From a virus: a stretch of DNA of 31,736 nucleotides. A program made the position numbers and the translations under genes. How positions within the stretch are numbered: the stretch's first letter is position 1; every line of letters starts with the position of its first letter. The stretch lies in the IMG/VR virus record IMGVR_UViG_3300032288_005505, positions 1 through 31,736 of that record, one strand, 5' to 3'. The notes below the pieces were generated by a model. It had not been told where the DNA came from, searched no databases, and saw nothing but the letters and a program-made list of their open reading frames with translations. Below, piece after piece: positions 7,121-30,896 of this stretch.

Positions 7121-7912
7121 TCAACCAAAAATGTCAAAATATTGTCTCCAATCCGATTTAATTATGTTATATTCATCTTTATTTTCCAAATAGCAAAAAT
7201 CTAAATATTTTTCTTCACTACCCACATACCCTTTTTTTAAGTTTTCTCTAATAAAATTATTAAAAACAAATATTAGTTTATTAATTTTTTCATTGTTCGG
7301 TACAAGGATACAACCTCCGTGTATATATCTAAATTGTGAAACTAAATGAAATGGTTTATCATCAATTGTAAAATTTTCTTGATGACTAAAAAAAGTTATC
7401 TTATCACTAAACCCATTATTAATTTTTTTAATGTTCGGAAACCCTTTTTTTATTTTTGCATCAAAATCTCTTAATACACCAGCATCACACCAAATGAACA
7501 TATCGGAATTAAAATCTTTATCATCAATTGATTTTTTTATAAAGTAAAGTTTGTTAAATATTATTATATTATAAAGTGGTTTTGTCATTTCTGGAACATT
7601 GAAGTGTAGTCTACTCTTAAACTCGTCACTTTCCATCAAGGTTTTGGTTTCGTGGTAAAATAATTTATATGAATTTAAATTTTCTAAAACATCTATTTTA
7701 ATAATAGTTTTTTCTAAATTTGGATCAACGACTTTTCTTTGTTCTATTATAAAATTTTTAAATTTTTCTTCTGTGTATATTACCATATTTGTATCAAAAT
7801 ACAAAATATTTTTCATCCACACCATATAGGTATTATACGATATTTCATAATTATCCCACTTATCCCTACCAATATCAAAAAGAGCTGTTACTATAGTTGG
7901 GTTTGTTATCAT
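7121..7912 (-). CDS. HtrL/YibB family glycosyltransferase-like protein
   Basis: The 263-residue protein opens with TIVTALFDIGRDKWDNY, the signature start of the HtrL/YibB family (Pfam HtrL_YibB). It has a central IWCDAG motif at about residues 140-145, where an acidic D-x-x pair would bind a metal and sugar nucleotide in a GT-A-like fold. The length agrees with bacterial members, which occur in surface-polysaccharide loci. The biochemical activity of the family is not well established, so sugar transfer is inferred from its fold and context. The start ATG overlaps the stop of the upstream glycosyltransferase gene by four bases (ATGA), which implies co-translation. Together the pair interrupts a run of fibre genes, so their substrate may be a fibre protein or the host surface. 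Confidence 0.7.
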   Translation of the reverse strand: MITNPTIVTALFDIGRDKWDNYEISYNTYMVWMKNILYFDTNMVIYTEEKFKNFIIEQRKVVDPNLEKTIIKIDVLENLNSYKLFYHETKTLMESDEFKSRLHFNVPEMTKPLYNIIIFNKLYFIKKSIDDKDFNSDMFIWCDAGVLRDFDAKIKKGFPNIKKINNGFSDKITFFSHQENFTIDDKPFHLVSQFRYIHGGCILVPNNEKINKLIFVFNNFIRENLKKGYVGSEEKYLDFCYLENKDEYNIIKSDWRQYFDIFG

Positions 7913-9138
7913 ATCGTTCCTGTTATTTTATCTAACCATTCTTTTGATTTTGAATGTGCCCACACTGTCCAACTTTTTGGTTCAGAATAACTTAAAAATT
8001 CTCTTTTAATCACCACTTCGTCATTGGATAATAACCTAATTATCTCTTGTTCATTTTCGTCTTTTCTATATAATTCTTTGTTGTTTTCATCGTGAAATAT
8101 TACCGCCCAAAAGTCATAATCATTTTCAATGAAATTACTTTTGTTTAATTTTATTTCATATTTGATGGTTTTTAAAAAACTATTTTCCCACTCTTTTTCA
8201 TCTAAAATTACAGGATTAGGCGGATAGTGTTTTTGTAATGTATATTCTTGTACTGATCTTTTTTCAAACAAGACACCAGCATATTTTTCATAATCTCTCA
8301 AAGTTCTTTCTTTTCCTAAACCATATTTTCCGTCGTGCCCCTCTTGTTTATTACCGTCCATACCAAATAATTTACGGTTCAAAAGATGTGATTTTTCATT
8401 TTTTTTGTACCACTCTTTATCGTCATCCCATTGTTTTGTCCTACCTTCTCTTGTGTATTCATGCCAAAGAACAACTTTATGTGGGTGAAATAAATCATAA
8501 CCGTGAGTAAACGCCCTAACGGCAATCGATATTTCTTCTCCGTGAAAATAAAACTCAGGATTATGTTGTACTTCTTTTGAAAATTGTCCTAAAGTGAAAC
8601 AAAAGTGTGCAGAATAAAATCTTGATGGAATTGGTTCTGTTAAACTTTCCCAATTTGGTATCATTTCGGGTAAGAAAAATATTGCCCCTTCGGGAATAAA
8701 TTTATCAAAAACCATTCTCCAAGGCACTGTTACCCTCCCTTGTGGATCATTTTTAGGGTTATATGATGAAACATAAGCAGTTAATAGTGGTTTTTTATGT
8801 CCTTTTTCTTGTAATTGTTTAATCATACTGATTAATGTTTCATCCCAATTTTTTTCAAATCTCATATGAGAATCTATTTGAAGAGTATATTCTTCATTTT
8901 CGTATAATTGTTGTATTTGATTTCTTGCCCAACAAACACCTTTACTTTCACTCCAATTAAAATCTAATATTCTAAATCTATTATCTTTTGAAAACTCTTC
9001 TAAAGATTCTGTTTCATCGTGTTGCCAACAAATACCAAAAGTTAAATTTTCAGGGTATTTTGCCTTGTCAATACAATCTCTAATAGTAGGTAAAAGTTCG
9101 GGATCCCTGTAAGAAGCAATTTGTACAAATATTTTCAT
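7909..9138 (-). CDS. GlcNAc-transferase-like glycosyltransferase (GT60-like) with extra C-terminal domain
   Basis: The N-terminal 290 residues match the family that includes the Skp1-protein GlcNAc transferase (Pfam GlcNAc). IASYRDPELLPTI is at residues 8-20 and CWQHDE at 37-42. LQIDSHMRF carries the metal-binding D89-S-H91. HGEE is at 199-202 and WHEY at 225-228. These enzymes transfer GlcNAc from UDP-GlcNAc to hydroxyl groups on protein or glycan. The last 100 residues (from about PNPVILDEKEW) form an extra domain I do not recognise. It begins as NPV..DEKEW, ends in SWTVWAHSKSKEWLDKI and may bind a carbohydrate. There is no signal peptide or membrane segment, so it should act in the cytoplasm. 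It overlaps the HtrL-like gene by four bases. Confidence 0.75.
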   Translation of the reverse strand: MKIFVQIASYRDPELLPTIRDCIDKAKYPENLTFGICWQHDETESLEEFSKDNRFRILDFNWSESKGVCWARNQIQQLYENEEYTLQIDSHMRFEKNWDETLISMIKQLQEKGHKKPLLTAYVSSYNPKNDPQGRVTVPWRMVFDKFIPEGAIFFLPEMIPNWESLTEPIPSRFYSAHFCFTLGQFSKEVQHNPEFYFHGEEISIAVRAFTHGYDLFHPHKVVLWHEYTREGRTKQWDDDKEWYKKNEKSHLLNRKLFGMDGNKQEGHDGKYGLGKERTLRDYEKYAGVLFEKRSVQEYTLQKHYPPNPVILDEKEWENSFLKTIKYEIKLNKSNFIENDYDFWAVIFHDENNKELYRKDENEQEIIRLLSNDEVVIKREFLSYSEPKSWTVWAHSKSKEWLDKITGTI

Positions 9139-11960: not shown

Positions 11961-14684
11961 TTAACAATTATATTGAGTTAAAATTACACCACTGTTATTA
12001 AATTGTATGATTGTTCTTGTACCAACAATCGGACAATCATTTGATAAATAGATGGTTCCCCAACCGCTGGAAGGTCCGTAATTAACCGCTAAATAACCGA
12101 TATTAGTAGTTAATGAAGAATCACCATACACAACATCACCAATATTTAAAGTTGCTCCTGTTGTATAAAATGTTGTATCACAATTTGTTTCCAAACAAGC
12201 ATTTACACTTGAACTTAGCGGATAGTTGTTACCAGAACCAAACCAAACACCTGCAGGTAGTGCCGGAGTTGGTGTCGGAGTTGGTGTTGGTGTAGGTGTT
12301 GCAGTTGGTGTTGGTGTGGCAGTTGGTGTTGGTGTCGGCGTAAACGTCGGTGTAGGTGTCGGCGTAGGTGTAGGTGTCGGCGTAGGGGCAAGTCCTCCAC
12401 AACTAATATAATATTCAACACTCAATTCCAAAGAAAAATCCGTTTCACCTAAAGGATCTACCCCACCCACACAATTTGATTCAATATATAAACTGTTGTT
12501 TAGTAAATCTATTTCATAAGAACCTATTTCAGGTATACCACTTAAAATAGTTTCTATTGCCAATTGCCAAGATGCATCATCCCAAACATTTAATTGCTCT
12601 ACATATGTGTTACCACTTAATGTTATTTGACAACTTACAATAGCATAATCTAAAATACAATTTGTGTATCCCGATGTTAAATCCAAAAACCCTTCACTAA
12701 CCATTTCAGGTATACCTCTTTTTGTTCCGCTTGTTGTAACAAAACTATTTTGACATATTAAATATTTAGTACCTCCAGTATATGTATTTACACCACAAAC
12801 AATATTGAAATTATGAATATTTGTACATCCGCTTGAATCTGTAACAAAAACAGCATAAGTACCTCCACTTAACCCTGTTACCAATGAACCTGTATTTGCT
12901 GATAGTGAACCTTGCCAATCATATGTAAATGGTGGGACACCATCATATATTAATACTTGAGCAGTTCCATCAATTCCTGTTACACAATTTGTTGTTATAA
13001 TATTACTAACTAAACTACCAGTATCCCCTATAATAATTGGTATTGATATAGTACAACCGCTAGCATCAACAACTTGGACGGTATATGATCCTGAAGTTAA
13101 GGAACTAAAAGTATGTGAAGAAAGGGGTAAATCAATTATTGATTGATTACTAATATTATTTATTAAATAATAATCTAAAGGTGATGTATAACCAGTACTT
13201 ACCTGAATACCTACGGTTCCGTTAGCTGAACCACAAGTACTAGGTGTCGTTGTTGCTGTAACTTGGAATTTTTCTTCATTTTGTATTGTAATTGGTTGTA
13301 TAAATTCACACCCACTAGATTGTCCTGAAATAGACAATAAATAGTTTCCGGAATTTAAATTACTGAAAGTTGTGTTTAAATTTGATGAATATTGTGTAGA
13401 TATTGAATTATTTGTAAGACCTGTAAGTTGAAATAAAAACGGGGCAATCCCTGTTAATACAATATTAATTTCACCGTCGTTTCCATTACAAGTTGTATTT
13501 GTAACTGTAGTGTTTATTATATCAAAACCGTTTAGAGTGGTTAGTGTGGCATTAACTAATAATGAACACAAACCAGCATCTTTTACTAAAATTTCATAAG
13601 CACCTGTTGGTAAATTTGGTACCGTGAATGTATTACTAAGAGTAAAACTTTGGTATCCTGTATTTGCAGATATAGTGTATGGTGCAGTCCCTCCTGTTAT
13701 TGTTACAGTCACCGAACCATCAGAATTAAAACAAGATGGATTTACTGATGTGATTAAACCAACACCGAGAGGATTGGCAACACCAACCGTTTCTGTTTGT
13801 GATGTTTCACAACCATAAAAATCAGTTACTGTTACTGTATATGAACCAACAGTCAATCCTGTTACCATTTGTGTAGTTTCACCATTGGACCATAAAAAAC
13901 TATAAGGACCATTTCCTGTTAATCCTGTAACAGACAACTTACCCGAATTTGGTACACACTCCGATGTGTTTACTTTCCATAAACCAAACGTTGTACCACT
14001 ACTTCCACTAACTACAACATTATCAGTAATGGCACTAACCATTCCATAATCATATACTACGGAAAAATAAATTCCTTCATCTAACCCTACTAAAGTGTAC
14101 GGTAATGAATTAACTTGATATGTTGAAAAAATAGTATTGTTTTTATAAACAATTAAATCATATGGAGCTGCGGTTGATGTAGCATTTATTGTAAACGTCC
14201 CATTAGAATCACCACAAGTAGTTCCATTAGTATTAGTGATGGATGCAACAAAACAATCTGAAATTTCAACGTTTATAAATAACTCATTGTTTTGTATTCC
14301 TAATGAATCGTTTAATCTAAAAACATATGTTCCTCCTGTCAACCCTGTAAATGTTATATCAGATGAACTAGTTTGTGCAGATAAACTTCCTGGCGTAATA
14401 TTGTCTATAGTGTATGGAGGTATACCACCAAATGATTGTATGGTAACTATACCGTATGGATTATCACATAAACCAGTTACGGTGAAAACATAACTGAGAG
14501 GCCCTTGATTACAATTTTGTGTACAAGTTGATCCACTATCCAAAATAACACCAATGGTAGATGCGGATGTTGAAGCAGATATACAAACATTTTCGAGTCC
14601 CGGCGATATCCCCGCTTGGACTAACCCACAACAGTCAGTAAAATAATAATAACCTCCGGATGTAAATCCTGTAATACAAGCCAT
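11961..14684 (-). CDS. Large adhesin-like protein with seven SprB-type repeats and Thr-Pro linker, 907 aa
   Basis: Residues about 72 to 625 contain roughly seven SprB-type repeats. Each has a Cys-x-x-x-(N/D)-G start, a GGTAPYT or [10 protein letters not shown] core, and a G-x-Y-x-V-x-V-x-D-x-x-G-C end. The clearest is at 243-300 ([20 protein letters not shown]). A non-repeat region follows to about 765. Next comes a long Thr-Pro linker (about 766-808) and a C-terminal domain of about 100 residues related to the end of the 542-residue protein. The repeats resemble those of the Flavobacterium gliding adhesin SprB. I place the start at the ATG at 14684, which forms a TAATG with the upstream stop; an in-frame TTG three codons earlier is possible but less likely. 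Probably a host-binding tail appendage. Confidence 0.7.
12264..12388. repeat. Hexanucleotide-type repeat encoding long Thr-Pro linker
   Basis: About 20 units of GGTGTN on the plus strand, the longest such run in the window. Scattered changes give Thr-Ala and Thr-Phe interruptions. It is near-identical in unit sequence to the three runs at 5956-6483, about 6 kb away, so recombination between the two genes is possible. Confidence 0.85.
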
Positions 14685-17665
14685 TATGAACAAACAATAT
14701 TAATATCTAAACCTACATTTAGGTCTAGAAGTTTATTAGTAAAATCAGCATAACAAGAAGAATTACTTATTGTTAAACTACCACTGGTAAAATAATAATT
14801 TAAACCGTATTGATATAAATACTGAAGTTTGTCATCTATAGCATTTATAACGTCAAAATAGGTTAATGGTGTTCCATTTACATTATCTATCGCATTTGGT
14901 CCATAACCTGTGTAAAAATATTCTTTAATTAACACTTCTTGTTGACTTGTTATTGGATCTAATAACCTAACTAAAATATACCAATTAGATTCTAAATTAT
15001 TAAAGTTACAATTAGTTAGGTTATTGGTTACACCTAAAACTGTTTCAGATAATATTCCAATTGGGTCAAATAAAGGTAAATCACAAACTAGTGTTTGATC
15101 AATACAATCATAGGTATAAGGTTCACCGTTATATGTACACGGAAAACATTCCACAGACAATGGTGTTATTGTACAACCTCTTTGTCTTCTCCAAACATAT
15201 TTTTGTCTATGAAAAATAGAGTTGTCCATTTTTTGTCCTGTATTCCATAGTGTTGTTGCCGGAACAAATTGTTCAACTAATCTAACCCAATAATCACCTA
15301 AACTTAATGTAAAATCTATCATTTTTTGATAGGTAAATTGGTTGTTTGGGATGTTCAAAGTTTGGTTACTATTAATATAGTTCCAAAAAATTGATTGTAG
15401 TGTTGGGTATCCCCCTGTTTTACCGTCTGAAATGTATTGTCTATTTCTAACGTTTATAAAATTATTATAAAAATTTTGAGCAAATTCAAAAAATGTTTTT
15501 TGATTTGGTTTTGGATCGATGTATGTCCAATCTATATTTCCTGGTGATGGGTATGGTGAGGTAAATCCACTATTAGGGATTGGGTAACCATAAGTTGCTG
15601 ACATATTCCATATGTCGTAGGTTATTCCTTGTCCCATATTTAAATAAACTTCCATATTTTTAACATTCAAGGAAAGTCTGTCATCCTCTAATATATAATT
15701 TGTCGCAGCTAAGTCCTGTAAATTTTTTCTTAATCCAACATCATTTAATGTCCAACTCTTTTTGTTGTCGATAACTTTTGTAATGTTGTACCCCAAATCC
15801 ATAAAAGGAAAAGAACGATATCTATCCAAATATTCTTTACCGTATGTAAAAGGAGTCAAAACAGAATTAACTACAGGTATTTGTGAATTCAAATCAGATG
15901 TTGCGTAACTAATTTGTTCAGGTGATCTGTGTTCAGGTGTTAGTTCAAACCAACCCGATCCTTTTTGGAAAAAGTAATCGTCGGTATATGTTGGTCTTTG
16001 TGGGTAACCCGTTTCTAAATTTATCGGGTAATCTTGAATGTCTGTATTAACATTAAATATTTGGCTACTTGTTGTAAACCCAGTGTACTGTACCCCCCAA
16101 ATTGAAAACGTATTACTCGATAATAAGGATGGGGTTTCAACATACTTTGTTCCACCCGATATTGTCATATATTCTTCAAAAAAATCATCTACAGATATTT
16201 TTTGATCAGCAACATAAATGTACTCATTAAATTCTATTAAGGCTTCAGGCGCACCAACCATCCTTAAAATATATTCAATAGATTTTCGAGTACCTTTTGA
16301 TTTAAATAAAAAAGCCGAATTTAGTATAAGGTTTCTAAAATATTGATAATTTAGCTCTGCTGGTGTTTGTTCTTTTGATTGTCCAGGATATATAACATCA
16401 TTTGTAGTAGTAAAAATAGAATCTAATAATTTTTCATTTGTTATTGGGGAAATGTCGGTATCCCAACCTAATGTTTTTGCTAAATTTACTAATAATTGTG
16501 ATGGAATGTCATTTCCAACAATATAATTAACGGAATTAATGTTACCTAACGAATCAATAAACTTTTTTGTCTCATCAAAACTTCTACCGTAAATTTGAAG
16601 TACGTTTTCTAATTTCTGATCGGGAGTATCAAATTCTTTTAAACTACCTGAAGTTAAAAATCTACTTATTAAGTTAGTTTTAAACTGATCCAATCTTTCA
16701 GATATTAGTTGTAGCGTATTCAAATAATTATCAAAATTTGAAGTGACTATGTCTAAATTCCAAACCCCGTCTAACTTCCAAGTAACTATGTTGTTAATCA
16801 TTATATAGTTACCATTACTATCATAATCAGGGTATTTAAATTTTGCCGTATACTTAGGAAAACCATTTCTATTTAACAAATAATCTTCAACCTCATCAAA
16901 CGCATCTTGGAATATTTTTTCAGTATTTAAATTGTTTGGTTTTAAAATTAGTGTTTGTGTTGATGTGGTTGAACTAAATGGTTTACCTTTAACTACTATT
17001 GGTATTGTACCTGCAGTCAATGTCTGAGTTGGGGTAAAATCAAGTATCGGGTATTCGGTTGTTAAGTCCGTGGTATAAAGTGAATATCCTTCATAATTTT
17101 TTGTCAAATTCCTGAAATCACTTATTTTGAATGGTCTTGTCGATATGTTTTGAGCGGCATTTACACTATAATCAATATCAAAAGGGTTTTTAAAAAATTG
17201 AACGTTAACATCAAATGATGTTTCATTTGCAACCGCATCATAAACTATATTAAACGCAGTAAAACCGGTATTTAAACTATAATTTTGTTGATCTATTTGA
17301 ATTGCCGCAGGGAAAAAATTAATAATTTTTGTTACTGAAGCTGAAATTCTTTTTTGTAATGAACCATATAAAGAAAAACTTGTAATTTGTGATAAGTCAA
17401 AATTTGGATATACACTGAAGTTTTTTTTGATTATAACTTTTGTTTCTTCAATTGTTCCTATATTTAGGTTTTCTAAATTAAAAGGTTCTGAAAAAACTCC
17501 TGTACCAAAACTTCTGTTAACTTTATCAAATACTGCAGTAGTATATTCAAAATTACCCTGTGTTAAACCACCACCATTTACTACTTGAAATCCGACTAAA
17601 TCGTCAGAAAAAGTACCCGATCCGACAGGTGCAGGTTTTGGACATATGAATTTATTTTGAGCCAT
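14684..17665 (-). CDS. Large baseplate protein with P2 gpI / T4 gp7-like segment, 993 aa
   Basis: Around residues 436-468, [20 protein letters not shown] followed by IEYILRMVG resembles the most conserved part of the P2 tail protein I family: an 'R-x-L-I-x-x-A-x-x-x-x-x-x-K-G-T' helix. That family corresponds to T4 gp7 and TssG in contractile systems. It is preceded by a Leu-x-x-Leu-G-W-D motif (near 400). The N-terminal 300 residues look beta-rich. The C-terminal 200 residues are Cys-containing ([19 protein letters not shown]) and may be a separate binding domain. The start ATG overlaps the stop of the 302-residue gene (TAATG), and its own stop overlaps the adhesin start the same way. Baseplate wedge membership fits the position after gp6. 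Confidence 0.55.
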
Positions 17666-20559: not shown

Positions 20560-22249
20560 CCGTTGTTGGTTCGTTATAACCTGACGTTGTAGGTTCGTTT
20601 ACGTCTCGTATTATTGGGTAATTTATAAAGTTTATTTCTTTAAAAGGGTAATGAGCGTCATTTGTAAATGGTATATTTAAACCTAAATTATCACTATCTA
20701 CATATCCATAACTATAAAGATCCCTCCAAATAAATTGATTTGTTTTTTCAGAAAAATATGAATAAAAAGGTATATTACTTACAACACTAGCATCAGCATT
20801 CTCAACATAATCACTGAAAACTCTGATTGGGATACTGTGGTGTGGTTTATATGAATACCCCGATGGATACTCATTTGTTGAGTTGTCAAAAAATACATTT
20901 GTATTTAATGAGTATTTGTGGTAAATTGGTGAAAGGACGTATTCTTTTTGTTCATAGTCATTGTATTCACAAAAATCACCTTTTATTGTGTCACCTTTTT
21001 TTAACAATTTATTATAATAAAAAGTATAACCTTGTTTTGTGTAAGATTGCACCACAATATTATCTTTGTTTAACACTGAATTATGATTCCACCAAGGATC
21101 AATACTATTTTTTTGAAAATTAAATCCCCAACCAATATCAATTGCTTTATTTTGATTTGCAGGTGGTTTATTAAACCATCCGGCAAATCCCCTATTAATG
21201 ATTGTAAAAAATAATTCCGTAACCGGTTTTCCATTATTATCTATTAAATTTGTAACATCAATGTCGGGATTTACTGTGAACCCATAACTTTGACTACCTG
21301 TTTTAACTGAAACTCTTTGTTGATTGTCAGGTGTTAACGCCGAATATTCTAACTTTCTTTTATTAGGGAAAGGGTTATTTTCAAAACCCATTTTTGTAAT
21401 AAAAGTTTCATTATTTTCAGTCAATAATTTATGTAATCTAACATAATATCTTGATTTTGTTTCACCGCTATTATTAATATCTCGTATTCTTTTAAAGTTA
21501 CCTGCTCTTCCGTCATATACGTCGGTATTTGGAAATGATAAATCAAATAAAGAAAACACTTTTTCATTTGACCTATATGTCCCATCACCCACATTATATA
21601 TTGAAAAAATATTTTTTCCGTTAATAGGAAAACTTAACTCAATTGATTGTCCTGCAGTTAAATTGTGTTTTGTAGCACAATAAAAATAAACCAATTGTTT
21701 TCCATTTAAACTTCCTTTTTTTATAACAAAAGGTACTCCGTCAGAAACATTGAAAACATTTGTAACTGAATTGACGCTTCCTTGTGTGTATGACATAGTT
21801 TGTGCTGTTGTACTACTATAAGGATAAGTAACATAAAACATCCAATTGTAACTTGTTGCACTTTTTGATATGAAATTTAAATGGTTAGGTATTCCTCTAT
21901 CTCTAATCATACTAAACTCATCATATTGTGGGTAACCCCTCCAAACATTAGTATTAATTGATTGTACGGGATCGATTAAATATAGAATGTTTTTAAAAGG
22001 TGTATAAATAGAAGTACCAGAAACCGTGTTATCAAACACATTAACAATTTTACCACTCAACCTAAAAGTATTAGAAAGTTGTCTTTCTTCTTCAAAAATG
22101 TTTTCAACATTTACCAAAGAAGACCTGTCCCCTTGAACAAGGTTTCTTCTGTCTCCTATTAAGTTAACAGACACTTGTTCATCAACATTTGCAGAACCCG
22201 CAAATCTTTTAGAACCAAGTACAATCCTTATTTCATCTTGTTTTCTCAT
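20546..22249 (-). CDS. Unknown baseplate-region protein, 567 aa
   Basis: The protein is rich in aromatic residues and Asn, with no family I recognise. The N-terminal 60 residues are polar and basic (LGSKRFAGSANVDEQVSVNL), the rest beta-like. The C-terminus carries a short tandem motif, NEPTT-SGY then NEPTT-DDCE. The DNA of this motif overlaps the start of the next gene. Its own ATG overlaps the stop of the 2089-residue gene as ATGA. The neighbours suggest a baseplate or short-fibre protein; the sequence alone does not say which. Confidence 0.55.
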   Translation of the reverse strand: MRKQDEIRIVLGSKRFAGSANVDEQVSVNLIGDRRNLVQGDRSSLVNVENIFEEERQLSNTFRLSGKIVNVFDNTVSGTSIYTPFKNILYLIDPVQSINTNVWRGYPQYDEFSMIRDRGIPNHLNFISKSATSYNWMFYVTYPYSSTTAQTMSYTQGSVNSVTNVFNVSDGVPFVIKKGSLNGKQLVYFYCATKHNLTAGQSIELSFPINGKNIFSIYNVGDGTYRSNEKVFSLFDLSFPNTDVYDGRAGNFKRIRDINNSGETKSRYYVRLHKLLTENNETFITKMGFENNPFPNKRKLEYSALTPDNQQRVSVKTGSQSYGFTVNPDIDVTNLIDNNGKPVTELFFTIINRGFAGWFNKPPANQNKAIDIGWGFNFQKNSIDPWWNHNSVLNKDNIVVQSYTKQGYTFYYNKLLKKGDTIKGDFCEYNDYEQKEYVLSPIYHKYSLNTNVFFDNSTNEYPSGYSYKPHHSIPIRVFSDYVENADASVVSNIPFYSYFSEKTNQFIWRDLYSYGYVDSDNLGLNIPFTNDAHYPFKEINFINYPIIRDVNEPTTSGYNEPTTDDCE

Positions 22250-25200
22250 ATCTGTCCTACAACATATTTTTTAATGTATCGATTCATAGCGCTTTTACCT
22301 TTAAATAATCCAAAATAAAAATGATAAGGAGCACTTACAACGAAATCAGGAGTGTTGTTTGGGTTTTGTGATGGTGCAAATGTTGGTACTCCGTTATTAT
22401 CATAATTGTAAATATATCCAGTATTCGGTCCATTACTTGCTTGGAAATATTCTGTAGTAATAAAAGACATCTCTTGGTATTTTGTTTCATATATTCCATT
22501 TATATTTGTGTACCAATTATTATCTTGATCACCCAATATTGATAAATAACCGTTTGAATCATTTCTCAACCATTTATACATAGGTACGTTTTGCGTTTTT
22601 GGATAACCATTATATTGAAGGACGTTACCGAAAGTAAGAATACCTGGACTTAATGTCCTTCTTTTTGCAACATCGCTTTCATATAAAACACCCACAACAG
22701 CATTTCCATTTGTCGTTGACAAATAAACATCATTATCATCATAAAATTGATCGTTAAATGGTAATATTCCGTATTCTGAGTTTATACTAAACATTTGAGC
22801 CACATCCCCATCAATTCTAAGTCCCGACCTACTGAAAAGTGCAAAAACAGATGCGTTTCCAGTTCCCAAATACAAATCGGAAGTACTTGTACTAAGTAAA
22901 CGAGATAAAAAGAAAAATAACAAAATAGTGTCTGTTGGGTTATACGTGGTGGTTTTTAATGTTTCCACTAAATACCCGTCTAATTGTGGATTAAAACAGA
23001 TTTCTTTTGTAAATTGATCTCTTGGTCCTAAATCCATTATTGTTGTAGGAAAGAAAATATTTCTACTATTCAATCCTCCGTATTCAGATGCATTTTCCCA
23101 CTGTCCTCCAAACCAAGCCTTTTTTCTTGGTACTTGACCTACAAATTGATTCTGCGTGTGATCATATGGTGTTGATCGATAAAAGAAAGAATTTGATGTT
23201 CCTGAAGCGAAATAAACCGGTCCTTGATATGGGGCATTTGCACTTTCGGACGAACCACAGAACTTATATATTGGTTGTCCATTTAAATCAAAAATAACTC
23301 TATTTTGAAATGCAAAACTATATAACCCTCCGTTAACCCAATTATTATGAAAGACGTGTGAGAATACTTCTCTACAAGCAGCAAAAGAAAAAATAAATCT
23401 AGCCTTCCATTCCGCTAAACTATTCGCGTCTCTTTCTAATTCTGCTTGTGATAAATATTCTTTTGATACAAAATAATAACACCCCCCTACCACTACTTGT
23501 TTTTCTAAATTTCCATCAAAGTTATTAGCGCAAGGCGCCACAACACCAAATGTCTCTCCGTTACCACTGTAACAAGATAATAAAGTCATACCTTCACAAG
23601 ACAAACTATTAATGACTAAATCACTAACTGTACTTCCAGATGGTCTATCAGCGAAATCTTGACCTACTCCAACATCTAAAGGTACATACGGAGTAAAAGT
23701 TAACTCAGTACTAATCCCTCCTTCTAAAACTTTATAAATCTTGAAATTATCATTTAAAAATAACGCATATGATGAGTTTCCACTTATTTGTGTTGTTGTT
23801 GAAGTTGGTAACCTATCAGATCTAAAAACTAGTCTTGTACTATCTTCAATCGTACAATCATAACTGTAATTAGTGTCTGTCAAATATGATGGTGAATATA
23901 CTCTAGCAAAAATACTACTTGTATTGTTTATGTTAAATAATTGTCCAGGTGTTGTTGTTGACGCAATAAGAGTACCACCTTCAATATTCCCAACATCAGT
24001 AACATAAGAAGGGTAAACTGATGGTGATATGTTTGTTGGGGGGTCAGTGGAATACCATAACCTCGATATTGTATTATATCCTTGTGTCCAATTGTATGCC
24101 CGTGGTGAATATACACCAGCAGGTGTTGTAAATGAAGCAACATTACGACTATCCCCAGGATAAGAAACAAAAACAGATTGTGATTTGTCTAAAGATGAAT
24201 AATATTTCAACGAATTATTTGTAAATGCTGAAAACGATTGAAATAAAGGTAAAGTATTGAGTCCTGAAACAGGAGACGAAAATGAAGGATGAAATAACCT
24301 TATATTTCTATTATTTATTACATAATGACTTTCAGGTGTATGTACGTCATACGCCCAAGTAGATGGTGTAACACCTGGTACTTGCCAAAGTGCGGTTGTT
24401 GCTGGCGCAATAGGTAACGTATTAAGTTGTGGTGGTATATTTAAATAATAATTTCCCGTCACTTTAATGTCTCCTAATGGTTTTCCAAATAAAGGGGATA
24501 TATCATACTCTATTCTTTGTTTTTCAGTGTATGGATCAACTCCCCTTACTAAAATTGCTATTTCTTTGTTATCAAAATTACTAACAATTTGTCTTGGTAT
24601 TGCATTATATGTTCTATTAACATTTGTCCAATTCGCATAAGGTCCAGATGTCGGATTAGTCAATGACGAGTTTATTATAAAATCAGAATTACCCGTATCT
24701 ATAAGTCGTTTAAGACGAACCCCAATATTAGGATTACTAAACGCACCACCTATTAATACCTTATATAGTGGTAAAAAGTTTTCTCTTTTTATATCATACA
24801 CACCACCACTCGCATTTTGACTCCAAGACTGATTCAAATTGAATGCCGTGTCAACAGAACCATCATTTAATAATCTAACTATTTGATTTCTTACATTATT
24901 TCGGTACTCTGTAAAATCACCACCAACTAAAAGTTTTTCTACGTTATTTGCGTCTAAATAGTTATATATAACCCTCACAGTATCATCAAACCCGTCAGAT
25001 AACGACAAAGATGTATTTGTAAAAGATTGTATAATATTTCCATTTTGTTGTGTTTTTACAATTCTACCAACATAAACATTTCTATAATAAGTAAAATTTC
25101 CACCTATATAGATGTCTCCAGTACCATCTAACGCCTGTTTTATTGTGTAAACATTTCCGTTAATTGGGTTTGTTTGTGTTAATTGTGAAGTAGTACTAAA

Positions 25201-28200
25201 TGATGCATCTAAAGTTCCTGAAGAATTCAATCTTACCGCATATCTTCTATTTTGACTGTTAAAGGTTGTAAAGTCTCCCCCAACAAGAATACTTCCGTTT
25301 GTTTGTAATGAAACATCTCTTACGATATTATTAAATCCTGAACCAATATTCAAATTATCGTCAGCACCTAAAGGAGTTAAACGTAGAAGTCTGTTAACCG
25401 GAATTGTATTAAAAGAAGTAAAACTACCACCAACCAATACTTTACCATCAACAGGTTGTATTGTTACTTTATAAACACCCTCACCCGGTTGAAAGGCATT
25501 TGATACCGCAAATGTTGAATCCACTGTTCCATTAGTTTCTAACCTAACTAACGCATCTATACTTGGATTTCCATCATATTCCGAAAAATCTCCCCCGACA
25601 ATAATTTTTCCGTCAGAAGGTTGTATAGCAATAGTTCTAACTGTATCATTAAACCCAGCACCAAAATTAAATGATGGGTCATAATCTCCGTTAGAATTTA
25701 ATTTAATGATTCTAGAACACGGAGTACCATTATAAGAAGTAAATTCACCTCCAATATAATAATTACCACCTGAATCTATTGCCACAGTATGAACTGTATC
25801 ATTAAACCCACCATCAAATGGTGTTTGAGATGCTGACGCCAAACCTTTACCCCATCTAAATTTCATACCGTGCTCATAGACATAATTTTGAAGTGGTCCA
25901 TAAGCATTCAAATCAAGTAAAGGGAATAATTGAGCCATTGTACCCCCAGTAACTAACTGAAAATATTCAACACCAGCCTTATACTTATACGCCTTTTTTT
26001 GTTCAGTTAATTTTAATTTTAATCCCACAGTTGTGGCATATCCATTTGGTTGTGGGTTATAATATGTTATATATTTTTGTACTAATTGTGTAGGATTGTA
26101 TAATGCATCCCCTGTTATTGAATTTGTTCCTAATTCATTTAATGTCGCTCCCGTTAAGTTAGGGTCATATATCTCATTCGTATTTGTAAATGATAATAAA
26201 GTTCCCGGATCACCCAAATTACTTAAAGTTCCTTGATCACAAACAAGTATTAGTGGTTGATCATAAAACGGCGCTGAGACATCTTCTGTAGTTGTATTAG
26301 GTATAAAATTTTTAATTGTTGTTTGTATTTTACCCCCAAAAGATGTTCTATAAGTATCTCTAGTATTTAATTGATTTAACCTTTGGGACCATGTTTGAGT
26401 AAACGATAAAGTTGCAGAAGGACTAATTTGACTAGGCCAAGTAACAACGGGTGTTTTATACAGTTTAAATTTATTATTTGATTTGTCACCTAAATACCCC
26501 GCAAATCCCTGTCCTATTGACGAATTTAAAGTTTCATTTGTAAAATCGTAATTAGGGTTTGTCGCATTGCTATTAGGATCGTAATTCCTTATGAGGTTTG
26601 CCATATAATTTTCATTATATTTACTATAAGTTCTAACACTATTACTATCAATTAAAACACTAAAATTTCCAGCATCTTGATATAAATCAATCAAATCGTC
26701 CCCTACTTGAATTATCTCACAAGAACAATTATCACAATCAGGATATGATAACATTGGTAAAGAATATCTTGCAAATGGATTTTGTGGCTCCATTAATTCT
26801 AATGCCCACTTTTCACAATTGAAAGCCTCTCCCCACCCAAGACTATCAAAAACATCATTTATTTTATAACATAAACTTACAATGTTATCATTCCAAAAAT
26901 TGGCTAATTTATTCCATAACCTAACAATAATATCATAAAGCCAAGCAAGTACGTGTAATACAACAATGAAAATGTATATTAACGGATAAAATAACCCTAA
27001 TGTGAAATACACAACAAAAAATATGATATCAAACCTAAATTGTGCATCATTTGTTGGAAACCTATTTGTTGTCGCTGTACAAGCCCTTTCTGTTATTTCT
27101 TTAATTCCTAAAATTCTAGATGGTATATATCCCCATTTCCATCTATCTATATGTCCCGATACTGTATAAACTCGATTATAATTAAATTCAAAAAATTTAT
27201 CCTCACAATCAACCGCTTCTTGTATGATTTGTAACCCCAATGTGGTTCCCGTATCCCCATAATCATTCCAATCTAAACTAAACGCATATGACTTTCTTTG
27301 TAAATCTGTGTCATCAGGTTCATTTAAACTTGTAGATAACCAACCATATTCTTTTATATTTGGAACTAAATAATCAGCTCTTATTATTGTTGAACCTTGT
27401 GGGTCTTCATTTTGATATTGAATCCTGAATCTATATTTTGCCTTCGTTGGTATTCCAACCGTTGGATCGTTAGACAAAATTTGTTCTCCAAATTCGTTTG
27501 TTGTTATATAGTCAAGATTCATCGGCACTTCAACTAACCAAGTCCCGTTATCATCAATTATGTTACCACCATCCTCAAATTTATATTCTTCTAAAACAGG
27601 AAATCCAATAGAATCGCTATTAATAGTTTGTCTTATTGCTAAAATTTTTCCTGATTGCGTAACCATATCACAAAGAGCCCCTGTATTTAAACTTGGTTTA
27701 CAACTTACCTTTAATTCGTCTTCATCAGAATTGCTAAATATAGAACCCATAAAAATTGCTTGTGGTGAAATTTCAATTCCTGAATCACGCAAATCAAAAT
27801 CGACTCTTGTTATTCCAATTGTACAATACTCGTCATCCCCCCAAAAAGGATCAACTTCCACTTCTTTAACTTCATTAATAATTTGTGGAAGCATCGCTAA
27901 ATTAGAATTAGCCCTGAATTGAGGTCCAGCAAATTGTCCTTCAACACCTATCCCCATTCTTATTAAATCTGCAGGTCTTTGTGAAAAACATCCAATGTTA
28001 GATATGTCCATATCCATAACAACACTTTGCATCCCTAAAGGAACACCAACAATCATAAAATCACCACTATCGTTTGTACGTACTGTGAATTTATAATATT
28101 TTTCATATATCTCTAATACTTCAGTTCTTGTTAATAAATCATTTCTGTCAGGAAAAGTTCCTGTAGGTGTATGTCCACCATACTCTTGTACATACGGTAG

Positions 28201-28515
28201 TAGATTATATCTGTAACCATCTTCGTTTTTATCAGAAATAGATTTGTAAGGATATAAAGTTGAGATAATTGGATCAACTTCGTCTTCAGTACTAAGGGGC
28301 ACAAAAACAGAAATACTAACATTAGGTACTCCATACCCTCCGTTTGCAATTACCCTACCAGCAATCACACCATAATCGGCACAAAATTTAGTATATAAAT
28401 CTTCTTGTTTTAATTTTAAAGACAAAATTTCTATCAAATCAAAATCTTGATCGATTTTCATTTGGATATTTTTGTCTGAACCTGGTTTCGCCTTGATTCT
28501 ATAGCTTTTGAACAT
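22246..28515 (-). CDS. Giant baseplate-region protein with carboxypeptidase-regulatory-like domain and seven-bladed propeller, 2089 aa
   Basis: Domains in order: an N-terminal polar region; a carboxypeptidase-regulatory-like beta-sandwich split over residues about 50-75 (AGRVIANGGYGVPNVSISVF) and 141-170 (TNDSGDFMIVGVPLGMQSVV); and a very hydrophobic stretch at about 495-531. Next, a Cys cluster (DCDNCSCE near 588-595), then seven delta-60 (DUF5122) repeats at about 902-1281. Finally there is a long unassigned region with several Cys and a tail ending YIKKYVVGQI. The gene directly follows gp6, where T4 carries gp7, so it is probably a wedge or wedge-attached protein. There is no signal peptide. 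Length and domain mix are unusual; the start ATG follows an A-rich leader with a TATTTAT motif 14 bases upstream. Confidence 0.65.
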   Translation of the reverse strand: MFKSYRIKAKPGSDKNIQMKIDQDFDLIEILSLKLKQEDLYTKFCADYGVIAGRVIANGGYGVPNVSISVFVPLSTEDEVDPIISTLYPYKSISDKNEDGYRYNLLPYVQEYGGHTPTGTFPDRNDLLTRTEVLEIYEKYYKFTVRTNDSGDFMIVGVPLGMQSVVMDMDISNIGCFSQRPADLIRMGIGVEGQFAGPQFRANSNLAMLPQIINEVKEVEVDPFWGDDEYCTIGITRVDFDLRDSGIEISPQAIFMGSIFSNSDEDELKVSCKPSLNTGALCDMVTQSGKILAIRQTINSDSIGFPVLEEYKFEDGGNIIDDNGTWLVEVPMNLDYITTNEFGEQILSNDPTVGIPTKAKYRFRIQYQNEDPQGSTIIRADYLVPNIKEYGWLSTSLNEPDDTDLQRKSYAFSLDWNDYGDTGTTLGLQIIQEAVDCEDKFFEFNYNRVYTVSGHIDRWKWGYIPSRILGIKEITERACTATTNRFPTNDAQFRFDIIFFVVYFTLGLFYPLIYIFIVVLHVLAWLYDIIVRLWNKLANFWNDNIVSLCYKINDVFDSLGWGEAFNCEKWALELMEPQNPFARYSLPMLSYPDCDNCSCEIIQVGDDLIDLYQDAGNFSVLIDSNSVRTYSKYNENYMANLIRNYDPNSNATNPNYDFTNETLNSSIGQGFAGYLGDKSNNKFKLYKTPVVTWPSQISPSATLSFTQTWSQRLNQLNTRDTYRTSFGGKIQTTIKNFIPNTTTEDVSAPFYDQPLILVCDQGTLSNLGDPGTLLSFTNTNEIYDPNLTGATLNELGTNSITGDALYNPTQLVQKYITYYNPQPNGYATTVGLKLKLTEQKKAYKYKAGVEYFQLVTGGTMAQLFPLLDLNAYGPLQNYVYEHGMKFRWGKGLASASQTPFDGGFNDTVHTVAIDSGGNYYIGGEFTSYNGTPCSRIIKLNSNGDYDPSFNFGAGFNDTVRTIAIQPSDGKIIVGGDFSEYDGNPSIDALVRLETNGTVDSTFAVSNAFQPGEGVYKVTIQPVDGKVLVGGSFTSFNTIPVNRLLRLTPLGADDNLNIGSGFNNIVRDVSLQTNGSILVGGDFTTFNSQNRRYAVRLNSSGTLDASFSTTSQLTQTNPINGNVYTIKQALDGTGDIYIGGNFTYYRNVYVGRIVKTQQNGNIIQSFTNTSLSLSDGFDDTVRVIYNYLDANNVEKLLVGGDFTEYRNNVRNQIVRLLNDGSVDTAFNLNQSWSQNASGGVYDIKRENFLPLYKVLIGGAFSNPNIGVRLKRLIDTGNSDFIINSSLTNPTSGPYANWTNVNRTYNAIPRQIVSNFDNKEIAILVRGVDPYTEKQRIEYDISPLFGKPLGDIKVTGNYYLNIPPQLNTLPIAPATTALWQVPGVTPSTWAYDVHTPESHYVINNRNIRLFHPSFSSPVSGLNTLPLFQSFSAFTNNSLKYYSSLDKSQSVFVSYPGDSRNVASFTTPAGVYSPRAYNWTQGYNTISRLWYSTDPPTNISPSVYPSYVTDVGNIEGGTLIASTTTPGQLFNINNTSSIFARVYSPSYLTDTNYSYDCTIEDSTRLVFRSDRLPTSTTTQISGNSSYALFLNDNFKIYKVLEGGISTELTFTPYVPLDVGVGQDFADRPSGSTVSDLVINSLSCEGMTLLSCYSGNGETFGVVAPCANNFDGNLEKQVVVGGCYYFVSKEYLSQAELERDANSLAEWKARFIFSFAACREVFSHVFHNNWVNGGLYSFAFQNRVIFDLNGQPIYKFCGSSESANAPYQGPVYFASGTSNSFFYRSTPYDHTQNQFVGQVPRKKAWFGGQWENASEYGGLNSRNIFFPTTIMDLGPRDQFTKEICFNPQLDGYLVETLKTTTYNPTDTILLFFFLSRLLSTSTSDLYLGTGNASVFALFSRSGLRIDGDVAQMFSINSEYGILPFNDQFYDDNDVYLSTTNGNAVVGVLYESDVAKRRTLSPGILTFGNVLQYNGYPKTQNVPMYKWLRNDSNGYLSILGDQDNNWYTNINGIYETKYQEMSFITTEYFQASNGPNTGYIYNYDNNGVPTFAPSQNPNNTPDFVVSAPYHFYFGLFKGKSAMNRYIKKYVVGQI

Positions 28516-28588: not shown

Positions 28589-30430
28589 TTATGAAAAGTC
28601 GACTGTAGTAAGATTTTTAACTCTCACTTTTATGTCTTTGTTTGGGAATCTAATTTGATAAATCTGATCGGGTTCAGCAAAGATTGTACTATCAATAAGT
28701 TCTATTTCTTTAGTCACAACACTAATATATCTTTGTGATGTTTCTGATGAAGAATATAACCCACCAACTTTATTGTAAATTTTCAAATCCGTAAGAGCAT
28801 TTACCCCTGATATATTTTGAACAATTGTTCTTATTTCAGAAACATTAACATTTTGTCCAAGCTCTCTATTTGAAGGTAACATATAATTATTCACACTATT
28901 AATTACCTGTGTAATAACATCTCCTTGTGAACCAGGACTGTCAAGAACAATAAAAAATTCAAATTCTAAATCAATAACTTTAGCAACTTCAATCGAGATA
29001 TAGTCGTTTATCATTCTATATTTTGACAAGTATGTTGCTAAATTTGTTTTTAGATTGTTAGAGACGGTTTGAGTTAAAACCCCCGTACTATCATAAGATA
29101 ATATTTTTACTGAAATTTTATTGTTAACTTCAGATATAGCAACTTTAGCAGGTGCCCCAAAATTACCTGGCATTGTATCAATTAAAGATTTGTAATCATT
29201 AATAGTAACCGCCCTTTTTTGTGCCGAAAAATTATATGTCACCATATTTCTTACTTCTTCAACACTTGGTTGGTTTGCACCTCCAATTGCTGCGGTGACA
29301 TTATTTACTCTCAACGATTGAATGACATTGTTGTTAATAATTTCTGATGGGCCGTTTACCACAAAATCAACTAACCCAACTTGATTAATTGCACCAACAC
29401 CTATGTTACTTGATAACCCACCACCTGTTCTATATTGAACAAAAAGGGTAGTGTTTGGTTTTACAGTGAGCCCAAGTCCTATATTATTTTGAAAGTTTTG
29501 TAATTTTAAAGGTATTCCTGTAGTTGTAAATTGTCTTAATTGTTCATCAGGTGTAACAGTACCCGCACCAAATTGGATTTTAAGAAAACCTTCAGGTGTG
29601 TATTCAGTTATGAATCTATTATCTGTTTTTATATATCTACCAACCTTTACCCCAGCTTCATCAACAGGTTTTGTTGGGTCTTCAATAAATACAGTATCTT
29701 CAACCAAAGCATCCACTTCATACCACCTATTAGTGGAACTTGCAAATTCAGAAAATGAGGGTGTAGCCTGATAAGTCGTACCTTCTTTTTGAATTATAGA
29801 TGTTACTCCTAAAACATTTTTATCAGGTAAAAAGAAATTATAAAAAGGTATTACGTCTTGTGGATTAATTACTTTTTTAAAAACTTGGGTTGTACCATTA
29901 ACCACAACTTCTCTTTTAGTTATAATATAACTTGTTACTGAATTATTATTACCGTTAAAAATCGGAACTTTTGTTCTATTAATAAATCCTTCTCTGTTAA
30001 ATTGTGATGAAAAATCTATGTCATACACTGTCTCAAAAGTGGTTCCTCCCCCGTTAAATTGTGTGCCTGTTCTTAATATACCTAAATACCTAACATCTTC
30101 AGCATCCCCAAAAGCCGGTACTGTAATTGAAATGTCAACTATCGCAACAGAAGGTCTGAAACCAGGAACTTTAAGTCCGTAAGTTCTTGCAATATTAAAT
30201 ATAGATGATCTTTGTTGAGCATATTGTAGTACTGTTTCTTGTATACTTCTATCTATATGAAAATTTAAATTGTCTCCAATTGCTGCGTTTAAATCCATTA
30301 AAACGGAAAAAACCGATGCGTCATTAAAATTTTGAATTAAGTCGGGATAATACTGTCTTGTGTAATCAATAAGATCGTTTCTTAACCCTTCAAAATCTCT
30401 TTCAGTATATGATATTTTTCTATTTGCCAT
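28589..30430 (-). CDS. Baseplate wedge protein, gp6/J-like
   Basis: The 613-residue protein matches the baseplate J / T4 gp6 family in layout and key segments. The start is ISYTERDFEGLRNDLIDYTR, then FNDASVFSVLMDLNAAIGDN and YAQQRSSIFNIARTYGL, as in gp6 of T4-like phages. The conserved QKRAVTINDYKSLIDTMPG segment lies in the second half. T4 gp6 has 660 residues, so the length is usual. In T4, gp6 dimers join neighbouring wedges into the baseplate ring around the central hub. It starts at an ATG at 30430, four bases after the gp25-like gene, with no Shine-Dalgarno but an AT-rich leader. Confidence 0.9.
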   Translation of the reverse strand: MANRKISYTERDFEGLRNDLIDYTRQYYPDLIQNFNDASVFSVLMDLNAAIGDNLNFHIDRSIQETVLQYAQQRSSIFNIARTYGLKVPGFRPSVAIVDISITVPAFGDAEDVRYLGILRTGTQFNGGGTTFETVYDIDFSSQFNREGFINRTKVPIFNGNNNSVTSYIITKREVVVNGTTQVFKKVINPQDVIPFYNFFLPDKNVLGVTSIIQKEGTTYQATPSFSEFASSTNRWYEVDALVEDTVFIEDPTKPVDEAGVKVGRYIKTDNRFITEYTPEGFLKIQFGAGTVTPDEQLRQFTTTGIPLKLQNFQNNIGLGLTVKPNTTLFVQYRTGGGLSSNIGVGAINQVGLVDFVVNGPSEIINNNVIQSLRVNNVTAAIGGANQPSVEEVRNMVTYNFSAQKRAVTINDYKSLIDTMPGNFGAPAKVAISEVNNKISVKILSYDSTGVLTQTVSNNLKTNLATYLSKYRMINDYISIEVAKVIDLEFEFFIVLDSPGSQGDVITQVINSVNNYMLPSNRELGQNVNVSEIRTIVQNISGVNALTDLKIYNKVGGLYSSSETSQRYISVVTKEIELIDSTIFAEPDQIYQIRFPNKDIKVRVKNLTTVDFS

Positions 30431-30434
30431 TCTA

Positions 30435-30896
30435 TTATAAATTAATAATTATAAACTCTCTACTACCAAATGGATTGTTTTCATCTATGTATTCAATACG
30501 AATTTTTGCAGTATACTCCTCCGTGTTTGCACCTGGCACCCTATAAACAGGTATATCAAATTGTTCAGGTCTTAAATCACCAACCGACATTTCAGATTCA
30601 GTATAGGGTTCAACAACAACATTTTGTATTGTTAGATTTGGTATAAACTGTTTTACGGACTCTTCAATTTCTGTTTTAATACTATCAAAAGTATCTCCGT
30701 CAAGTGGTTCGAATATATACTCATATAGTCTTGTTCCAAAATTTGGTAAATAGTACCTACTTCCTTTTCTTGTTAAAAGTAAATGTACCAAATCTGTTCT
30801 GATTTCTTCTTCGGTGGTTTCAGACAATGAAAGATATTTTCCAACTTGACTTTGTCTAAATGGAAAATTAATACCATATGTTATACCGTTTGCCAT
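30435..30896 (-). CDS. Baseplate wedge protein, gp25-like
   Basis: The 153-residue protein matches the GPW/gp25 family. It has an N-terminal extension with INFPFRQSQVGKYLSLSETT, then EEEIRTDLVHLLLTRKGSRY, the family core 'LLT-x-x-G-x-R-x-x-x-P-x-x-G-(T/S)-x-L', followed by YLPNFGTRLYEYIFEPLD. The C-terminal part ends ENNPFGSREFIIINL. T4 gp25 (132 residues) sits at the wedge core where the sheath is anchored and is conserved in all contractile systems. It is the first gene after the terminator at 30941-30958, so a promoter probably lies in the 47-base gap before it. Confidence 0.92.
   Translation of the reverse strand: MANGITYGINFPFRQSQVGKYLSLSETTEEEIRTDLVHLLLTRKGSRYYLPNFGTRLYEYIFEPLDGDTFDSIKTEIEESVKQFIPNLTIQNVVVEPYTESEMSVGDLRPEQFDIPVYRVPGANTEEYTAKIRIEYIDENNPFGSREFIIINL

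Follow-up and report, generated by a model that had tools for sequence, protein, structure and literature searches.

A predicted seven-bladed delta-60 propeller, present or absent as a whole in a baseplate-adjacent phage protein, as a candidate host-binding module

Introduction

What does a whole repeat propeller contribute to a large phage protein whose gene lies next to baseplate genes? The question is raised by the virus record IMGVR_UViG_3300032288_005505, which was analysed as one stretch of 31,736 bases (in the following, the window). An open reading frame (ORF) of 2089 amino acids (aa), here called the carrier (22246..28515, minus strand; ORF call with confirmed coordinates), comprises at residues 902-1281 (24673..25812, minus strand) seven units of the delta-60 repeat (DUF5122 in Pfam), for which an AlphaFold2 model predicts a seven-bladed propeller. 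With a probability of roughly 55%, we read this propeller as an optional, fast-diversifying module, the exposed face of which would bind a variable ligand on the host surface during adsorption. In the proposed mechanism, a self-contained propeller occupies one fixed site of the large baseplate-adjacent protein and is optional, the carrier keeping its conserved parts without the domain. Between diverged relatives it changes much faster than the carrier, chiefly in the loops of one face, and this face, if exposed on the virion, would bind a glycan or a surface protein of the host during adsorption.

Repeat units and predicted fold

A sequence-only reading of this DNA had proposed seven delta-60 units at about residues 902-1281, each unit carrying a strict start, core and end motif. 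Number and place of the units were borne out. Seven GGxF cores were found at residues 922, 974, 1029, 1079, 1138, 1198 and 1256, with spacings of 52, 55, 50, 59, 60 and 58, and in 20,000 composition shuffles of this 380-aa segment, the core occurred 0.29 times on average and never more than 5 times, compared to the seven observed. On the whole carrier, Pfam DUF5122 (PF17164) showed an E-value of 4.4e-49 and 164.9 bits against a cut-off of 27, and a weaker match to the Rax2 propeller overlapped this match. The motifs did not hold for every unit. Exactly as written and counted by eye, the start was present in three and the core in four of the seven units; with relaxed motifs (D also accepted in the third position of the start, Y also in the core) start, core and end were found in 4, 5 and 3 units, respectively. 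Scored singly with the Pfam model, six of the seven units matched and five exceeded the cut-off. Unit 5 reached 16.7 bits, which is below the cut-off, and unit 7 was not found by the Pfam model alone; these two units are the most degenerate. Among the relatives, PF17164 matched nine of the 11 members of alignment A3; the other two are presumably L036 and L021, which lack the insert.

The fold was predicted by AlphaFold2 for residues 770-1400 of the carrier, based on an alignment of 11 sequences, nine with the insert and two without. Within the propeller, the ten-residue means of the predicted local distance difference test (pLDDT) were mostly 67-94, apart from a single block of 43 and three of 55-59 towards the end; the flanks were mostly below 50, and the predicted template modelling score was 0.59. 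DSSP assigned seven sets of three strands plus a short fourth to the model. Counted from the first strand, blade 1 covers residues 908-958 (25642..25794; this and all following blades on the minus strand) and contains an 84-nt tract that differs in the relative L008. It is followed by blade 2 (959-1013; 25477..25641), blade 3 (1014-1064; 25324..25476), blade 4 (1065-1124; 25144..25323), blade 5 (1125-1179; 24979..25143), which holds the degenerate unit of 16.7 bits, and blade 6 (1180-1238; 24802..24978). Blade 7 (1239-1281; 24673..24801), the most degenerate one and modelled with lower confidence, is the weakest part of the predicted propeller.

VIA-align placed residues of about 897-1274 of the model on solved propellers with Z-scores of 25.5-27.4 among the best 50 matches, which are mostly chains that we take to be seven-bladed and of the WD40 type. 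The best match was the spliceosome chain 7dvq_T (Z 27.4, 284 residues, root-mean-square deviation 2.8), PRL1 (4yvd) reached a Z of 26.8, and the '7-bladed designer protein' 7big was aligned over 277 of 286 residues (Z 26.1, root-mean-square deviation 2.8). With Foldseek, the top three matches in the Protein Data Bank (PDB) were two CylK entries and 7big, CylK being the top match at 18% identity, and the top three viral matches were uncultured Caudovirales proteins, one of them named 'Delta-60 repeat'. Sequence searches of the PDB gave nothing meaningful, neither with the propeller alone (best E 0.21) nor with a second family profile (best match a designed protein, E 0.0037). Altogether, the model and its structural matches bear out, as a prediction, the earlier proposal that this segment folds as one whole closed seven-bladed propeller.

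Presence and absence of the propeller among relatives

Two conserved anchors frame the propeller in the carrier: an N-side anchor at residues 785-894 (25834..26163, minus strand), ending just before the propeller, and a C-side anchor at residues 1325-1412 (24280..24543, minus strand). Both were recognised by profile match and alignment in propeller-bearing as well as propeller-less relatives. A scan with profile A4 gave at least 487 relatives, and the sample was limited to the 80 closest to the window; an earlier search for relatives had been seeded with peptides beside the propeller. The 103 resulting rows included 15 duplicate fetches, and the remaining 88 comprised 74 contigs with both anchors and 14 without, mostly cut by the contig end.

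The gap between the anchors was found in two forms with no intermediate lengths. It measured 26-63 aa without any unit in 50 of the 74 contigs and 420-447 aa with 5-7 delta-60 units scored in the other 24 (window included), although 24 of 74 is no frequency, since the sample consists of the nearest 80 of at least 487 relatives and the search was seeded beside the propeller. For the 50 contigs without the propeller, the ORFs of at least 100 aa in the retrieved stretches (718,891 bases) were searched, and none of them matched delta-60 at E<=1e-3. An assembly collapse of the repeats as the cause of the absence was rejected, because all units are gone together in 50 contigs, with both anchors in one open frame. 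The earlier description of the propeller as an insert within the protein is confirmed by these relatives. The propeller is optional, and the conserved parts of the carrier persist without it.

At more than 95% identity over the first 500 aa, 30 clusters were obtained: 10 with propeller, 19 without, and a mixed one formed by L029 and L036. These two are 98% identical in the first 500 aa; L036 lacks the propeller, yet both linker ends of L029 are kept. The conserved N-terminal core (residues 1-500; 27016..28515, minus strand; defined by the alignment of relatives) was the basis of a tree of the 74 contigs and L022, which was counted as propeller-less (anchors not recognised). On this tree, the drawn root of which is the midpoint, presence of the propeller changes state five times, and at least four of the changes are forced by well-supported branches. 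Since the branches next to the outermost L022 all lack the propeller, the pattern fits one gain with later losses; several gains are possible. In the contigs L010 and L053, the carrier ORF ends early (1394 and 1388 aa, respectively) and the contig continues, which reflects either a broken gene or a sequencing error.

These absences bear on a rival explanation, in which the propeller would serve the baseplate as a structural spacer or as a platform for attachment, e.g. of a fibre, its divergence tracking that of a partner protein. Propellers are often protein-binding platforms, baseplate genes adjoin the carrier gene, and the branching of the propeller tree is mostly that of the core tree (see below). 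However, 50 of the 74 contigs do without the propeller, as does L036, although its core and that of L029 are 98% identical, and the carrier family thus does not depend on it. A spacer or platform is considered unlikely.

Divergence of the propeller compared to the core

In diverged pairs, the propeller differs far more than the core (residues 1-500). The identities of core and propeller were 98% and 45% for L051/L053, 96% and 43% for L028/L035, 93% and 62% for L030/L032, 92% and 53% for the window and L009, and 89% and 55% for L029/L033. Faster divergence than the surroundings is a common hallmark, although not the definition, of phage receptor-binding proteins; it was observed within the gene for these five pairs and, in the case of L028/L035, also in comparison with some 15 kb around it. 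For this pair, the DNA identity over 15 kb in steps of 150 columns was mostly 77-99% and within the propeller 55-69%, with 69-80% and one step of 89% just beside it.

At fourfold sites, the propeller differed more than the core in L051/L053 (69% vs 28%) and L028/L035 (63% vs 45%), and slightly more in the window and L009 (61% vs 50%) and in L029/L033 (60% vs 49%), which would fit a replacement by an older homologous propeller. In L030/L032 the two values were alike (48% vs 50%), pointing to faster amino-acid change alone. The ratio of nonsynonymous to synonymous change (dN/dS) of five propeller-bearing pairs was 0.18-0.42 in the propeller and 0.026-0.048 in the core, which are rough values due to a dS of 0.45 to 2.08 in core and propeller; the 'propeller' row of L029/L036, comprising linker codons only, and two entries with infinite dS were left out.

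A comparison of the propeller tree with the core tree showed large agreement (Spearman 0.79 over 78 pairs), and free shuffling of propellers between lineages was for this reason rejected as the main process. L028 and L035 form an exception: they are sisters with a core identity of 96%, yet the propeller tree separates them, with weak support.

Between the window and L008, the core is 100% and the propeller 97% identical. Their first 926 codons are unchanged, followed by 20 nt changes within 84 nt of blade 1, of which 16 lie in residue-changing codons. No donor of this tract was found among the loci compared, and an artefact of mixed assembly is possible. In a tentative extension of the host-binding reading, which we hold to be possible and clearly less probable than that reading itself, the whole propeller would be a host-recognition cassette in a widespread group of uncultured phages that is present all-or-none in a core baseplate protein, is gained, lost or replaced in frame at one site, and in which short tracts within blades are also replaced, as in L008.

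Blade number, loops and bacterial delta-60 proteins

A comparison between phages was based on 13 of the 24 propellers, the remaining 11 being near-copies. All 13 retain seven units with an open frame, even where their identity to the window falls as low as 26%. This observation speaks against the propeller being a weakly constrained, neutral or near-neutral decoration that tolerates change and loss. The same holds true for its dN/dS, which is below 1 and indicates a fold kept by selection. The elevated range of 0.18-0.42 itself and the repeated changes of presence on the core tree would agree with such a decoration, which we nonetheless regard as unlikely.

Across the 13 propellers, 26 columns are invariant, mostly glycines and phenylalanines; a single tyrosine, glutamine and arginine and three aspartates are also among them. 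This predominance of glycines and phenylalanines argues against an enzyme, e.g. a glycan-cleaving depolymerase, and Pfam gave no enzyme family match. Some propellers are glycosidases or lyases, and the top Foldseek match, at its 18% identity, is the propeller enzyme CylK. Furthermore, a cell-degrading enzyme is one of two guesses given for the propeller protein gp131C of phage PhiKZ (PMC4901313). An enzymatic role appears very improbable.

The loops were delimited by the strands of the AlphaFold2 model, with the D strand set by a fixed offset. Mean pairwise identity among the 13 propellers was 20% for the DA and 27% for the BC loops (24% together), compared to 35% for AB and 40% for CD (38% together). 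The mean standard deviation (SD) of the loop length was 2.06 for DA and 1.91 for BC, compared to 0.66 for AB and 0.26 for CD. By the usual propeller convention, DA and BC lie on one face.

Bacterial DUF5122/delta-60 proteins have the repeat family in common with the carrier. A search with six short peptides gave nine bacterial loci at 25-37% identity; the titles of six name genera that we take to belong to the Bacteroidota. Among 12 bacterial ORFs from eight of the nine loci, six comprised 14 units and the others 4-11, whereas the phage form comprises seven. The unit period, read with a profile from the units of the window and leaving out spacings outside 35-85 aa, was on average 49.4 aa in bacteria (SD 2.5, 110 spacings) and 56.5 aa in the 13 phage propellers (SD 4.3, 78 spacings). 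Since this comparison covers neighbouring units and not orthologous loops, it supports longer and more varied phage loops and is silent on function.

The carrier gene beside baseplate genes

The carrier gene directly follows two genes for which PHROGs gives the name 'baseplate wedge subunit' (28589..30430, phrog_219, E 3.5e-21, and 30435..30896, phrog_261, E 6.3e-19, both on the minus strand), and which we take to be gp6-like and gp25-like, respectively. The sequence-only reading had placed the carrier directly after gp6, and this position was confirmed, the name gp6 being our own assignment. An ORF of 610-619 aa lies just upstream of the carrier in all 13 relatives listed. As the carrier gene stands directly after the gp6-type wedge gene, it holds the place of gp7; by gene order alone, the carrier would be the positional counterpart of T4 gp7, and the protein might be located in the wedge. 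Neither the carrier against PHROGs nor its N-terminal profile against PDB sequences gave a match, and an AlphaFold2 model of residues 1-760 showed a mean pLDDT of 39. A CarboxypepD_reg match (E 0.00073) was found in one of the 11 members of the core alignment A4.

A very hydrophobic segment at residues of about 494-560 (26836-27036, minus strand; Kyte-Doolittle) looks membrane-inserting, which would be odd in a wedge protein. Its sequence is poorly conserved, and a hydrophobic segment near residues 500-560 was present in all 30 representatives examined, with a best 19-residue Kyte-Doolittle mean of 2.34-3.36. The carrier could on this basis be a membrane-associated or ejected protein instead of a wedge part, with the propeller facing the cell envelope during entry. 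The place of its gene directly after two wedge subunit genes is in conflict with this explanation, which we judge to be quite unlikely.

Two further observations concern the carrier. A C-x2-C-x-C motif (PDCDNCSC, residues 592-599; 26719-26742, minus strand), possibly a metal site, was present in all nine members examined. From residue 1722 on (22291-23350, minus strand), the window differs from L007 and L008 by the same clusters, with 76 nt changes, and L007 and L008 agree with each other; this is likely a recombination tract.

Weighing of the host-binding reading

The propeller is closed by prediction and optional, keeps seven blades, diverges fast between distant relatives and varies most on one face, and its carrier gene lies with those of the baseplate; a module binding the host surface is the best reading of these features together. 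The predicted fold, the all-or-none presence, the rate of divergence and the gene neighbourhood are direct results, whereas a place in the virion, exposure, the host and ligand binding are inferred. Several points weigh against this reading. Six near-identical contig pairs (L033/L046, L038/L041, window/L007, L009/L011, L009/L015 and L030/L031) are 99-100% identical in both core and propeller, so that, apart from the L008 tract, the propeller shows its rapid change only across longer periods. The adjoining stretches are variable as well (dN/dS 0.10-0.27 where dS was estimable), most comparisons have a dS close to 1 or higher, and a propeller dN/dS below 1 leaves relaxed constraint possible. The agreement of the propeller tree with the core tree counts on the same side. 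Regarding the face, the inner strand A showed an identity of 33%, which is no better than that of the AB loop and makes it as variable as AB and CD, and this fold may have DA and BC as its variable loops in any case. Finally, the hydrophobic segment of the carrier is ill-suited to a plain wedge subunit.

Comparison with known systems

The sequence-only reading was aware of no described example of such an arrangement, a statement that proved too strong. In PMC4901313, gp131C of PhiKZ is described as a seven-bladed propeller at the baseplate periphery (4GBF), for which receptor binding is suspected but unconfirmed. Both cases concern a seven-bladed propeller in the baseplate region of a large phage; in gp131C it is the C-terminal domain, whereas that of the carrier lies inside a 2089-aa protein whose gene follows a wedge gene, is optional and is built of delta-60 units, and the two are likened by description only. 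According to the same source, the receptor-binding protein of phi11 comprises a five-bladed propeller platform and serves host recognition on the baseplate (PMC4901313). This resembles the role favoured here for the carrier, with the difference that the phi11 protein has five blades, is trimeric and belongs to a Staphylococcus aureus siphophage.

Delta-60 arrays or matching folds, as in the carrier, also occur in the Stenotrophomonas phages RAS14 and CM1 and in uncultured Caudovirales (A0A6J5M436). RAS14 and CM1 differ from the carrier by an identity of only about 25% in the propeller, and no carrier profile matched in the RAS14 stretch. In RAS14, a hypothetical protein of 1100 aa (L016:6678-9980(+)) showed roughly twelve delta-60 matches, which form two groups and include several weak ones, and a second protein beside it showed weaker delta-60 matches. 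The stretches retrieved from Flavobacterium phage immuto, uncultured phage LR756508, Microcystis phage Mel-JY01 and RAS14 contained no match at E<=1 to the N-terminal, C-terminal or C-anchor profile of the carrier.

In the literature searched, which mostly excludes subscription papers, 'delta-60 repeat' gave no match, and DUF5122 was found only in a modelling study (PMC8078820), in the available text of which 'phage' occurs only in a Pfam name. Within the same limits, and with sources available in part, no description of an optional delta-60 insert at a baseplate-region site was found. Since phage baseplate propellers are already known, the kind of domain is known.

Host, other genes of the record and significance

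The closest cultured records by the 613-aa wedge protein are Flavobacterium phages immuto (28% identity). In a protein of 910 aa (11961-14693, minus strand), SprB repeats were recognised at E 2.7e-17, as was a Hoc-like match of the head-decoration type at E 1.2e-6; this protein is another candidate adhesin. The SprB repeats in this nearby protein, together with the six of nine bacterial hits assigned to Bacteroidota, suggest Bacteroidota hosts, and the phages probably infect this phylum. The record further encodes a glycosyltransferase (7909-9138, minus strand; phrog_24687, 535 bits), which in the phage collection was matched at E<=1e-5 only by XacN1, CM1 and RAS14; the propeller, in turn, is matched in that collection by CM1 and RAS14 and by no other record.

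Only a minority of uncultured phages have known receptor-binding parts, and the propeller described here would offer a candidate that is recognisable from its sequence at a fixed site. Its presence or absence between close phages would constitute a natural experiment on host range and could serve as a virome marker. Furthermore, the propeller may show how a repeat of Bacteroidota proteins entered phages.

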